In this document: piece by piece, positions 206 to 20,438 of the stretch
How positions within the stretch are numbered: position 1 is the stretch's first letter
Layout: every line of letters begins with the position of its first letter
DNA from: a virus
DNA: 38,987 nucleotides
Reading direction: 5' to 3' (one strand)
IMG/VR virus record: IMGVR_UViG_3300035250_000079
Span: 1-38,987 of that record
Translations under genes and position numbers: made by a program
Notes under the pieces: model-generated
What the model was told of the DNA's origin: nothing
Seen by the model: only the letters and a program-made list of their open reading frames with translations
Databases searched by the model: none

Positions 206-254
206 GACATGAGCCTGCGCGTTGCATGGGCGCTGCGCAAAAAGGGCACGCCAT
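165..254 (-). CDS. 29-aa stand-alone zinc-ribbon peptide
   Basis: The frame begins MACPFCAAPMQRAG and has C3-P-F-C6, C16, C19-P-M-C22 and C28, so six cysteines in 29 residues, with two CPxC knuckles as in a zinc ribbon. It has a good ribosome binding site (AGGTGG a few bases before ATG), and its stop overlaps the next start (TGATG). The C-terminal half is also present at the right end (38947-38987) with only a silent difference, which supports it being translated. The spacing resembles the C-terminal Cys-rich tail of class II ribonucleotide reductases, but here it stands alone. Function unknown; a metal-binding or RNAP/ribosome-interacting peptide is possible. Confidence 0.65.
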   Translation of the reverse strand: MACPFCAAPMQRAGSCLVCPMCGETSGCS

Positions 255-354
255 ACCACCTGTTTGTATGGTGCAGGCGGGGGCGGGGGTTTCTAACACA
301 GTTTCGGTCATTCAGTAACTTTCGTTCATATAACAGGGTGTGGGTTGTAAAAAG

Positions 355-2512: not shown

Positions 2513-4096
2513 TTACCTTAGTCTCCTTGGCGTATAAGTAAACGCTAAAGCGTTTACTTCCCAATGGTTGTCTGACGAAGGTCCGCTGACCTTCATACTA
2601 ATACTTCTTCCTGTCCCAAGTGTGGGTAAGTTTAGTACATCTGCGGTGAGATTGGCCGAAATGGCATCCCAAGCCGCATATGTTGCTGATTCCGTATCGG
2701 AATCATCCCATTCCGCAGTATCCCACCGCGACGTAGAAACTTTACCTTCAATCGACAGATCGAAAGAGTTCGACTGTTCCGACTTGTCGAAATCCTTGTA
2801 AATCAAAATAGGTAGTGTGATGGTAGATTCCGCCGACAGCACCACTCTTGGGCGACCCCATCGTTTCTTGACAATGGGGTCGCGTCCCGTAACCCATCGG
2901 GTTACGAAATGGGATTCGATGTGTGCTTCAGTGGAACCCACATACCGATCACTGGTTCGATTCTGTGCATCTTCCACATCAACCATAATCCCCGTATTGG
3001 CGACACAACCGCCGAAAACGGTTGATGCCGCGTTCGGAGGGTTATACGCATACAGCGGGCCAGCGTCGATGTCTGTTGTTACCCACGCTCCACCCTCTCC
3101 CAAGGTGGGGTCGTAAACCAAAGTACGCCTAGTAGTTGCAGCATTTTCGGTCCAGTCCAGCGATACGTACAGTTTGTTATTTCCCCACGCCAACTGTGGC
3201 GGGTTAGTGTCCAGATTGTCAATACGTCCATCATCAATGGCAGGTTGCAGTTTGGCAAACAGCCACATGAACTGTTGCCCGTCATATACGTAAACGCCAT
3301 TGTTGGCGTACCAGAAGAAGGTTCCGAATGTAGTAGAAACGGGGGAAGAAAGTGGTATTGACCCGACATCGTTTGTCAGGTTGACAACTTGGAACGAGTC
3401 GGAATCCCATCCGAAAATAGCGTGAACACTATTGGATTTGAAAACCAATAACTTGTCCCCAGCAGGAACAAGTCCGGTTATGTAGTCTCCGTGTTCCCCT
3501 TTGTCAATATCAACGTAGTCAGCCGCAGCCCATTTCTCAGGTTCATTCGCATTGCTCCAACGAACGCGATATTTGTAGTCGGTAGCCGATTCATACGTGT
3601 TTGCCGCCCAAGCAAAGTTATTCCAAAACGCCACATATTGTGCTTGTGGGAAATTGCCTGATGAGCCATCCAACGTCACACCAAGATCGGCGTCAACACT
3701 ACCGTTCCACCTGAATGAAACCTTGTCGCGTGAAACCCCGTAGGCGACATTGTTCATTGTCATGCCATACACGCGCGAACCGTCAGTTCGCGCTGTGATA
3801 TTGGTCAGGTCGGTGAAGTTGGAGGTCGTGGCATAAGCCACCTTGGTTCCGTAGTTGACCATCTTTTGAGCGGTGCCAGAATCGGTGAAGAACCCCCATA
3901 TACCTTTGATGTCTGCACTCAGGGCAGTCGTATTCAACCGGTCTACGCCGTCGCGCTGGCGAATGCCGCCGCGCGGATCAACGACCACGTTCAATAGGTC
4001 CGGGGATTCGTTTTCTTGAAGGTTGAACTGGTCGGATCTGAGGTTCAATCCGCCTGTGAAGGCTTCAAGTACTTCTAGTTTGAATTGGCGGGCCAT
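2513..4096 (-). CDS. Probable tail hub/stabilisation-type protein (P22 gp10-like), 527 aa
   Basis: The N-terminus (FKLEVLEAFTGGLNLRSDQFNLQENESPDLLNVVVDPRGGIRQRDGV) is the usual opening of a podoviral tail protein that threads an N-terminal arm and then folds as a multi-bladed beta propeller. Repeated blades are visible (KMVNYGTKVAYATTSNFTDLTN; GVSRDKVSFRWNG; LVPAGDKLLVFKSNSVHAIFGW; FFWYANNGVYVYDGQ). It lies directly after the head-tail connector gene, as in short-tailed phages. The P22 gp10-like assignment is by N-terminal pattern, propeller character and position; a receptor-binding role is the alternative. Confidence 0.6.
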   Translation of the reverse strand: MARQFKLEVLEAFTGGLNLRSDQFNLQENESPDLLNVVVDPRGGIRQRDGVDRLNTTALSADIKGIWGFFTDSGTAQKMVNYGTKVAYATTSNFTDLTNITARTDGSRVYGMTMNNVAYGVSRDKVSFRWNGSVDADLGVTLDGSSGNFPQAQYVAFWNNFAWAANTYESATDYKYRVRWSNANEPEKWAAADYVDIDKGEHGDYITGLVPAGDKLLVFKSNSVHAIFGWDSDSFQVVNLTNDVGSIPLSSPVSTTFGTFFWYANNGVYVYDGQQFMWLFAKLQPAIDDGRIDNLDTNPPQLAWGNNKLYVSLDWTENAATTRRTLVYDPTLGEGGAWVTTDIDAGPLYAYNPPNAASTVFGGCVANTGIMVDVEDAQNRTSDRYVGSTEAHIESHFVTRWVTGRDPIVKKRWGRPRVVLSAESTITLPILIYKDFDKSEQSNSFDLSIEGKVSTSRWDTAEWDDSDTESATYAAWDAISANLTADVLNLPTLGTGRSISMKVSGPSSDNHWEVNALAFTYTPRRLR

Positions 4097-12082: not shown

Positions 12083-12101
12083 CCGAAACGCCTAGCCGAA
12101 A

Positions 12102-12127
12102 CGCCCGGTCCCTTCGGGGACCGGGCG
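12102..12127 (+). terminator. GC-rich UUCG hairpin after first early gene
   Basis: CGCCCGGTCCC pairs perfectly with GGGACCGGGCG (11 bp) across a UUCG tetraloop closed by C-G, the most stable RNA cap known. It is preceded by a 13-bp tandem duplication (12079-12091 and 12092-12104) that includes the stop codon. No U-tract follows. It may be a U-less actinobacterial-type terminator or an mRNA 3'-end stabiliser. Confidence 0.55.
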
Positions 12128-12186
12128 TCGGTCGGGATTCGCCACCCGGCCCTGATGATGGCAGGCGCATACACAGGAGGTTGCAA

Positions 12187-14765: not shown

Positions 14766-14814
14766 AGACTCACACCCTTTGCGGGGTGTGGTAACAGGGC
14801 TGGCAGTTTCCCTG

Positions 14815-14851
14815 CCCCAATCTCTTTGAACGAAGTGAAAAGAGATTGGGG
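14815..14851 (+). ncRNA. Capped hairpin 4 (GAAC-GAA-GTGA)
   Basis: CCCCAATCTCTTT pairs with AAAGAGATTGGGG (13 bp) around GAACGAAGTGA. As in hairpin 3, the helix continues past a G-C pair and a T.T mismatch into CCC/GGG. The 130-bp gap also holds CACACCC/GGGTGTG (about 14771-14790) and CAGGG/CCCTG dyads. The next ribosome binding site is ~30 bp downstream. Confidence 0.75.
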
Positions 14852-14895
14852 CTGGGAGGCTCCGGTCTTTCGACAAATGAGGCAGGAGGTGCCAC

Positions 14896-15207
14896 ATGAC
14901 AAAGGTAAATGCGGAACTGATCGCTGCTATTGAGCAGGCGCTTAGTTCCATCGAAGAGGATGCACCCGCATCCAAGCCCACTAGGGCACAGCGGTCGGCT
15001 GCTAACAAGAGCCTATACCGCAAGATACAGGGCCAGAAAGGGAACATCACCCGTGCCGCCAAGAAGGGCGACAAGGTGGCGTTCGTGGCCGCTGTTCAGC
15101 AGGCAGACAACCTGTGTCCAGAGAACTGGACGCTGGAGCGTGACAGGATCAAGGCTAAGGCCACAGAGCAGGCCGTTGTGTTGAACGCTGTGCTCGCTAC
15201 TGCTTAG
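14896..15207 (+). CDS. Basic 103-aa early protein, paralogue B
   Basis: Paralogue of the 105-aa protein at 11765-12082: acidic-ended N-terminal helix (ELIAAIEQALSSIEED), Pro/Lys-rich linker, then AANKSLYRKIQGQKGNITRAAKKGDKVAFVAAVQQADNLCPENWTLERDRIKAK. Strong GGAGGTG site. It lies directly upstream of the tmRNA-like RNA. Small basic proteins next to structured RNA genes make an RNA-binding role worth testing, but this is inference. Confidence 0.7.
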   Translation: MTKVNAELIAAIEQALSSIEEDAPASKPTRAQRSAANKSLYRKIQGQKGNITRAAKKGDKVAFVAAVQQADNLCPENWTLERDRIKAKATEQAVVLNAVLATA

Positions 15208-15219
15208 AGGATAGCGCTT

Positions 15220-15250
15220 GCACCCCCGCCGGAACAACTGGCGGGGGTGC
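15220..15250 (+). terminator. GC hairpin between paralogue B and tmRNA-like RNA
   Basis: GCACCCCCGCC pairs perfectly with GGCGGGGGTGC (11 bp) across a 9-nt loop. It begins 12 bp after the stop of the 103-aa gene and ends 15 bp before the tRNA-like domain. The following sequence has only a weak T-content. It could terminate the upstream mRNA or serve as a processing boundary for the RNA downstream. Confidence 0.55.
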
Positions 15251-15265
15251 TTGCGGTGCCTTTAC

Positions 15266-15368
15266 GGGGGTGAAATGGTTTCGACCTATACGAGAACCAC
15301 ATGGTCGCACGCGGTGACCGGACCATGTGGGACGTATGGGTACCGGGGTTCGATTCCCCGCACCTCCA
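15266..15368 (+). ncRNA. Compact tmRNA-type tRNA-like domain
   Basis: The 5' end GGGGGTGAAATGGTTTCGAC is the tmRNA signature. GGGGGTG (15266-15272) pairs with CACCTCC (15361-15367) as a 7-bp acceptor stem, followed by A. The T-arm is CGGGG-TTCGATT-CCCCG (15344-15360). P2 is CCTATACG (15285-15292) with CGTATGGG (15333-15340). Normally P2 leads into 200-300 nt of tag frame and pseudoknots; here it is closed at once by a perfect 10-bp hairpin, CCACATGGTC (15297-15306) with GACCATGTGG (15321-15330). There is no tag frame inside, and CCA is not encoded right after A15368 (CGA follows). A canonical tRNA is excluded by the missing D-arm and anticodon arm. Confidence 0.8.
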
Positions 15369-15369
15369 C

Positions 15370-15489
15370 GAATGAGAGAGGGTGTACGCACACCGTGGTA
15401 ATCGCAGCGGGTGCTTAGCCCGGCCGTGCCCGTAGTGGGCCGAAATCACTAGACGTATCTAGTTAGGTGGCACCCTCTCCCATTCACCA
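15370..15489 (+). ncRNA. Structured RNA domain downstream of tRNA-like domain, possible detached mRNA-like part
   Basis: Fifteen positions at 15370-15384 pair with 15471-15485 (GAATG/CATTC and GAGAGGGTG/CACCCTCTC around one A.C mismatch), and the sequence ends A-CCA (15486-15489). Inside: CACC/GGTG (15391-15394 with 15466-15469); CGGCC (15421-15425) with GGCCG (15438-15442), whose loop CCCG (15429-15432) can pair with CGGG (15408-15411) as a pseudoknot; and ACTAG-acgtat-CTAGT (15448-15463). A short frame reads THTVVIAAGA then TAG (15416-15418), a hydrophobic, Ala-rich end like a degradation tag, with its stop in a hairpin as in tmRNA. The functional link to the upstream domain is inference. 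Confidence 0.55.
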
Positions 15490-15517
15490 CAAGTAGACGC
15501 ATACAGGGAGGTATGTA

Positions 15518-15709
15518 ATGGTAGATAAGTATCAGGATAGGGCAGAACACGAGTTTGTTTGCCTAGATTGCGGTGAGGACAAGGCATTGGGGGACATGGC
15601 TACAGAGTGCCCGGACATGTCGCACGCGGTGACCGGACAACGAACCGGCGCTTGTAAGGAATGCTATGCGCTGGATAGGACACCATTGGAGGTGTGTAAT
15701 GGTAGGTAA
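15518..15709 (+). CDS. 63-aa zinc-ribbon-like protein
   Basis: FVCLDCGEDKAL gives one CxxC and GACKECYAL the second, spaced as in a zinc ribbon. Strong GGAGGT site. The codons for SHAVTG lie in a 20-nt stretch (15619-15638) identical to the loop and 3' flank of the tRNA-like domain hairpin (15304-15323), so one copy was probably derived from the other. Not assigned to a known family. Confidence 0.65.
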   Translation: MVDKYQDRAEHEFVCLDCGEDKALGDMATECPDMSHAVTGQRTGACKECYALDRTPLEVCNGR

Positions 15710-20364: not shown

Positions 20365-20438
20365 GGTTGTAACAACCGCTAGACTTAGTACGTACTAAGT
20401 ACTCCCCAGTCCTGAAGGGACTGGGGATTACTAAGTAC
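20365..20438. promoter_or_regulatory. TACTAAGT-flanked hairpin element, copy 2, with palindromes
   Basis: The 89-bp gap before the nuclease gene holds GGTTG-taa-CAACC (20365-20377); a perfect 18-bp palindrome, ACTTAGTACGTACTAAGT (20383-20400); a 10-bp stem TCCCCAGTCC/GGACTGGGGA (20403-20412 with 20418-20427); and a closing TACTAAGTAC (20429-20438). The core is the same as at 11353-11399. The palindrome is a natural dimeric-repressor or activator site. The ribosome binding site GGGAGG follows at once. Confidence 0.65.

Follow-up and report, generated by a model that had tools for sequence, protein, structure and literature searches.

What use could a phage have for a transfer-messenger RNA (tmRNA) that lacks its message? 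The question is raised by positions 15266-15368 of the virus record IMGVR_UViG_3300035250_000079, the whole 38,987 bases of which are here called the window. A preliminary description, made from the sequence alone, recognized at this locus a stand-alone tRNA-like domain (TLD) of a tmRNA and suggested that such a minimized phage RNA could be charged with alanine and act as an SmpB decoy, or else serve as the acceptor half of a rearranged tmRNA. We find that this locus holds a true phage gene, encoding a TLD-only tmRNA, and we propose, with a probability of about 0.55, that RNAs of this kind inhibit trans-translation in the host, as decoys for SmpB or as dead ends on stalled ribosomes.

A tRNA-like domain without a message

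The whole tmRNA model of Rfam (RF00023) was matched by positions 15266-15371 with 71.7 bits (E=3.9e-26, cmscan), and the alignment assigned only 16 nt of the window copy to the mRNA-like domain, which spans 280 positions in the model. Neither a resume codon nor a tag open reading frame (ORF) was present between 15266 and 15368, and the pseudoknots PK1-PK4 were likewise absent, the 56-nt P2 region being too small for them and forming a closed hairpin. The predicted fold has an energy of -50.8 kcal/mol (z=-3.6), which was equalled by none of 200 shuffled sequences. Both the covariance-model search and the folding had been proposed in the preliminary description, and they bear out its boundaries and its anatomy: all seven acceptor pairs, the 8-bp P2, the T arm, and a 10-bp hairpin that closes P2 without tag or pseudoknots (Table 1). 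Two details depart from expectation, namely the length (102 nt plus the discriminator), which is atypical, and the 3' end, where CCA is not encoded: the discriminator is followed by CGA, giving ACGA instead of ACCA. The acceptor GGGGGTG/CACCTCC contains the G3.U70 pair.

Other classifications were considered and rejected. ARAGORN reported neither a tmRNA nor a tRNA in the window, and an identity as tRNA-Ala was discarded, as the combination of a D stem and an alanine anticodon arm was not found. Nor is the gene a permuted tmRNA, since the 5' and 3' halves stand in the normal order and the permuted model RF04321 scored 25.2 bits against a cut-off of 47. No second tmRNA match was found elsewhere in the window.

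Table 1. Coordinates of the TLD gene, its parts and associated elements; labels beginning with L denote other records in the comparison.
Feature	Record	Positions	Strand	Remarks
Stand-alone TLD (TLD-only tmRNA), acceptor through discriminator	Window	15266-15368	+	RF00023 match and covarying homologues
Acceptor stem, 5' strand	Window	15266-15272	+	GGGGGTG; RF00023 alignment, 7/7 paired
D-loop-like segment	Window	15273-15284	+	AAATGGTTTCGA; tmRNA 5' signature in RF00023 alignment
P2, 5' strand	Window	15285-15292	+	CCTATACG, 8 bp; covariation in homologues, RNAalifold
Capping hairpin	Window	15297-15330	+	10 bp, where tag and pseudoknots would stand; cmscan, fold
Insert relative to L099	Window	15300-15323	+	CATGGTCGCACGCGGTGACCGGAC, 24 nt; comparison with the 78-nt L099 copy
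P2, 3' strand	Window	15333-15340	+	CGTATGGG; RF00023 alignment, covariation
T arm	Window	15344-15360	+	CGGGG-TTCGATT-CCCCG; RF00023 alignment, homologues
Acceptor stem, 3' strand, and discriminator	Window	15361-15368	+	CACCTCC and A15368; sequence, RF00023 alignment
Second structured RNA	Window	15370-15489	+	Directly downstream of TLD; closing stem GAATG.GAGAGGGTG / CACCCTCTC.CATTC, then ACCA
Upstream ORF	Window	14896-15207	+	Encodes 103 aa without Pfam match; precedes the gap that holds the TLD
Downstream ORF	Window	15518-15709	+	63 aa, no Pfam match; holds second copy of 19-nt repeat
Pistol ribozyme	L029	13481-13542		
Pistol ribozyme	L259	2620-2684		
Pistol ribozyme	L270	1437-1506		
Pistol ribozyme	L138	6093-6154		
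Pistol ribozyme	L189	706-767		
Pistol ribozyme	L010	4341-4411		Below cut-off

A phage family shaped by its structure

The window copy belongs to a family. A first scan of viral contigs for both tmRNA signatures placed 45-75 nt apart, with acceptor and P2 left unconstrained, yielded further complete TLDs (L006, L007, L010, L015, L018, L028 and L029), in which all seven acceptor positions are paired and G3.U70 is present. Wider pattern scans, combined with a strict descriptor that required complete pairing of the acceptor and of the T arm, brought the number of distinct TLD-only sequences in viral contigs to at least 62, with a modal length of 76-79 nt and a few longer members of up to 136 nt. 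The strict descriptor had no match in 7.8 Mb of dinucleotide-shuffled window sequence, and it served to discard the many pattern matches in tRNA arrays that were chance joins of adjacent tRNAs. Since a comparable pattern gave just five matches, three of them real TLDs, in 84,980 genomes of bacteria and archaea, as against at least 31 viral loci, the TLD-only RNA is mainly a phage gene; one of the three real TLDs shares its contig with phage head genes.

The P2 helix was part of no search pattern, and it carries evidence for selection. Among 55 non-redundant TLD-only members, the seven outer P2 positions are paired in 91% of cells, a value that drops to 35-43% after sliding by one or two positions. 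Each position past the first is occupied by at least five pair types (five or six), and position 2 is paired in 55/55 members by UA, GC, AU, CG or UG. The outermost pair is C-G in 54/55 and resembles, together with the GAC/TAC junction, that of true tmRNAs. The acceptor is paired at all 7 positions in every one of the 55 homologues. Furthermore, RNAalifold, run on 30 of the 55, recovered P2 and the T arm independently, with double or compensatory changes at 10/16 pairs and P2 pairs that are nearly unbroken. The G3.U70 pair is the alanine identity pair; it is kept in all members, including eight from the first scan, in which position 70 was unconstrained. Thus the alignment proposed in the preliminary description, for which an absence of covariation would have been damaging, revealed compensatory changes in both P2 and the acceptor, and the family is, to judge from these patterns, kept under selection on structure.

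Size and loops vary around this core. Several TLDs (L111, L123, L150, L163 and L177) measure just 62-63 nt, with a tiny loop closing P2, and the P2-capping hairpins of L007, L010, L028 and L029 have the loop motif TTGTCATCA / TTCGTCATCA in common. RNAs of 134-136 nt that resemble tmRNA and have a covarying P2 were observed in L059 (1623-1758), L074, L084 and L091 (5174-5307). They may encode a short tag, GCAAATACG... (ANTAGLTE* or ANTVGMFK*), and are perhaps minimal tmRNAs with non-degrading tags.

TLD-only RNAs also occur in cultured phages. BLAST searches with TLD queries identified copies of 77 nt in the Streptomyces phages BRock, LuckySocke, GiJojo and pSt2308, and a more diverged copy in Alone3, all five at the same place in a tRNA cluster, between tRNA-Val and the next tRNAs. 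Their acceptors vary (GGGTCTG/CAGATCC, GGGTTTG/CAAATCC and GGGGCTG/CAGCTCC), with G3.U70 retained throughout. None is annotated as a tmRNA in the GenBank records checked, which points to an annotation gap, as ARAGORN either misses TLD-only genes or mis-assembles them; its tmRNA calls at L106, L138 and L221 are apparent artefacts that join the 3' end of a TLD to unrelated flanking sequence. Other candidates were set aside: the BLAST matches in PegLeg, LilhomieP and the Pseudomonas record L314 are full tmRNAs, those in Ruegeria RpAliso, Stenotrophomonas DLP_6 and Moby, Xanthomonas Rb1 and Pseudomonas SM1 are permuted tmRNAs, and in the Mycobacterium phages Shandong1 and Marshawn the match is limited to an ssrA 3' end beside an integrase, the arrangement expected of a phage attachment site (attP).

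The closest relative of the window copy is found in L099, a contig binned in a metagenome-assembled genome labelled as an archaeon. It matches window positions 15241-15498 at 88%, the remaining L099 sequence compared being without a match. Its TLD has 78 nt, to which the window copy adds 24 hairpin nucleotides, and the acceptor pair G5-C68 of the window is A5-U68 in L099. The last 19 nt of the insert (15305-15323) recur exactly, as a direct repeat, at 15620-15638 within the downstream ORF, a match for which the chance expectation is about 0.02. The window showed no DNA similarity to any cultured phage, and its nearest relatives by capsid and portal are too distant for a host to be assigned. 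Two homologous phages, L028 and L029, contain DNA blocks about 65-80% identical to the window and both bear a TLD, as do the relatives L259 and L270. Because the L028 copy is placed at a different genome position and some relatives gave no tmRNA match, the TLD gene is mobile or dispensable.

What the RNA may do in the host

No SmpB was detected in 40 TLD-bearing records (control detection 10/14), and no full or second tmRNA exceeded the cut-off in them, the TLD being the sole match above it; these contigs may be fragments, while three are complete phage genomes. Because no smpB was found, any function of the TLD would depend on the SmpB of the host, and likewise on its alanyl-tRNA synthetase and processing enzymes. 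In the mechanism we propose, tRNA-processing enzymes of the host would trim the transcript, which would receive its CCA, fold and probably be alanylated via G3.U70, like the acceptor half of a tmRNA. It would then take the place of the host tmRNA on SmpB, and possibly on EF-Tu and the stalled ribosome. Because the TLD has neither resume codon nor tag, trans-translation would not be completed, and the net effect would be inhibition in the host, through sequestration of SmpB, dead-end occupation of stalled ribosomes, or both.

The idea has a precedent. PMC4131195 and PMC11915505 class the tmRNA of mycobacteriophage DS6A as "TLD only," and a similar RNA is described there as strongly inhibiting tmRNA, whether chargeable or not, perhaps by titrating SmpB. 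The decoy suggested for the window had thus already been published for one phage. The compensatory changes among homologues, the constant G3.U70 pair and the carriers without full ssrA or smpB lend support to a chargeable, minimized phage TLD that may act as a decoy, and, given how strictly the acceptor is maintained, the charged TLD may enter stalled ribosomes as a dead end, or undergo tag-less release, instead of only soaking up SmpB.

Several points speak against inhibition. The expression, charging and SmpB binding of TLD-only RNAs are predicted from sequence, and the benefit that a phage would draw from blocking ribosome rescue is conjectural. Other phages carry full tmRNAs, presumably helping translation. 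The conservation of the D-loop and T-loop was in part imposed by the search patterns, and several relatives of the window phage with enough upstream sequence gave no tmRNA match. Finally, the inhibition result of Mao et al. (2009) is taken here from the citing papers (PMC4131195, PMC11915505).

An unlikely alternative to inhibition is tag-less rescue, in which a charged TLD with host SmpB accepts the nascent chain and a hydrolase frees the peptidyl-TLD, so that translation is helped rather than inhibited; such a scheme might also hold for tag-less mitochondrial tmRNAs. That the acceptor, the G3.U70 pair and the T arm are intact in all members goes beyond what a mere SmpB sponge might require, and tag-less organellar tmRNAs do exist. 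Against this stands the inhibition of tmRNA by the similar molecule, chargeable or not (as cited in PMC4131195 and PMC11915505), and no dedicated release factor was noticed near the TLDs, although none was specifically sought.

We regard it as slightly less probable still that the TLD is a processing or stability module, a landmark for RNase P/Z or a cap that frees the RNA at 15370-15489 or upstream ribozyme-cut transcripts. This second RNA abuts the TLD both in the window and in L099 (238-350). Its fold is multibranched (z=-4.3) with a conserved core, GGGTGTACGCACACCGTGGTAATCGCAGCGGGTGCTTAG...GCCGAAA...GGCACCC, and it matched no Rfam family in cmscan. It also occurs twice without a TLD in L308, at 2670-2777 (-) and 207-290 (+), where the closing stem GAGAGGGTG/CACCCTCTC is replaced by GGATGGGTG/CACCCATCC in a compensatory manner, and it is a candidate for a new phage RNA class or ribozyme. 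Furthermore, several related phages have a Pistol ribozyme upstream of the TLD, at a distance of about 90-320 nt (Table 1). Most of the members examined are without such neighbours, however, and a plain tRNA would suffice for processing, leaving the strict tmRNA features unnecessary. Elsewhere in the window we observed a type II hammerhead ribozyme at 12094-12170 (45.7 bits, above the Rfam cut-off) and long near-perfect hairpins at 20392-20438 and 14794-14871, possibly terminators or regulatory elements, whose matches to Rfam microRNAs are due to chance.

The remaining explanations are very improbable. Integration into ssrA is common among phages and islands, as the ssrA 3' ends by the integrases of Shandong1 and Marshawn illustrate, but attP-like elements have the 3' end only, whereas the window TLD has both halves and a complete, covarying P2, and no tyrosine integrase (Phage_integrase) was found in the window record; an attP or captured ssrA fragment is refuted as a sufficient explanation by the P2 covariation. 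Two-piece (permuted) tmRNAs were found in several of the phages examined, but there the break separates the 5' and 3' halves, whereas the single RNA of the window contains both halves and a hairpin closes its P2, and no other tmRNA match above cut-off was found in the carriers, so that the suggested acceptor half of a rearranged tmRNA with its mRNA-like half elsewhere in the phage finds no support. A deletion remnant of a longer ssrA, the weakest explanation despite the clear tmRNA derivation of the TLD and the 134-136-nt intermediates, is excluded because P2 covaries across the 55 homologues; moreover, the acceptors are perfect and most family members have a uniform length of 76-79 nt.

Comparison with known systems

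What is new here is the size of the family, its covariation, its wide distribution and its cultured representatives; the kind was known before from a single example. That dozens of covarying homologues occur in carriers in which neither smpB nor a full tmRNA was found suggests that phages repeatedly resort to disarming or redirecting trans-translation. It is quite conceivable, though short of probable, that stand-alone TLDs form a widespread class of non-coding phage RNAs that inhibit trans-translation in the host and that arose or spread in many phage lineages, moving in the group of the window as a small cassette together with a new structured RNA or a self-cleaving ribozyme. If so, they would represent an RNA counter-measure by phages against ribosome rescue in the host. 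DS6A was previously one listed curiosity, and the Streptomyces phages make the family experimentally accessible.

The TLD-only tmRNA of DS6A (tmID 11587), a proposed inhibitor of host tmRNA, is encoded by a phage gene that is little more than a TLD, as in the window. The likeness is drawn from the published description, and the window differs in representing another, uncultivated phage, whose copy is distinguished by 24 additional hairpin nucleotides and by a partner RNA downstream. The Streptomyces phage copies are likewise TLD-only, with 76-77 nt and a covarying acceptor and P2, but they are located inside a tRNA cluster of larger phages, of about 112-116 kb. With the standard one-piece tmRNA (RF00023) the window copy has in common the acceptor with G3.U70, the GG.TTCGAC segment, P2, the GGAC/GTAC junction and the T arm, whereas it has no tag frame and no pseudoknots, measures 103 nt as compared with more than 300, and has its P2 closed by a hairpin. 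The mitochondrial tmRNAs of jakobids and oomycetes and the plastid tmRNAs of about 65 bp in the Mallomonadaceae are, like the window RNA, tag-less and consist of the tRNA-like part only. Unlike the phage gene, those of mitochondria are as a rule permuted, and their SmpB partner is encoded in the nucleus, whereas the phage RNA must use the SmpB of a bacterium.
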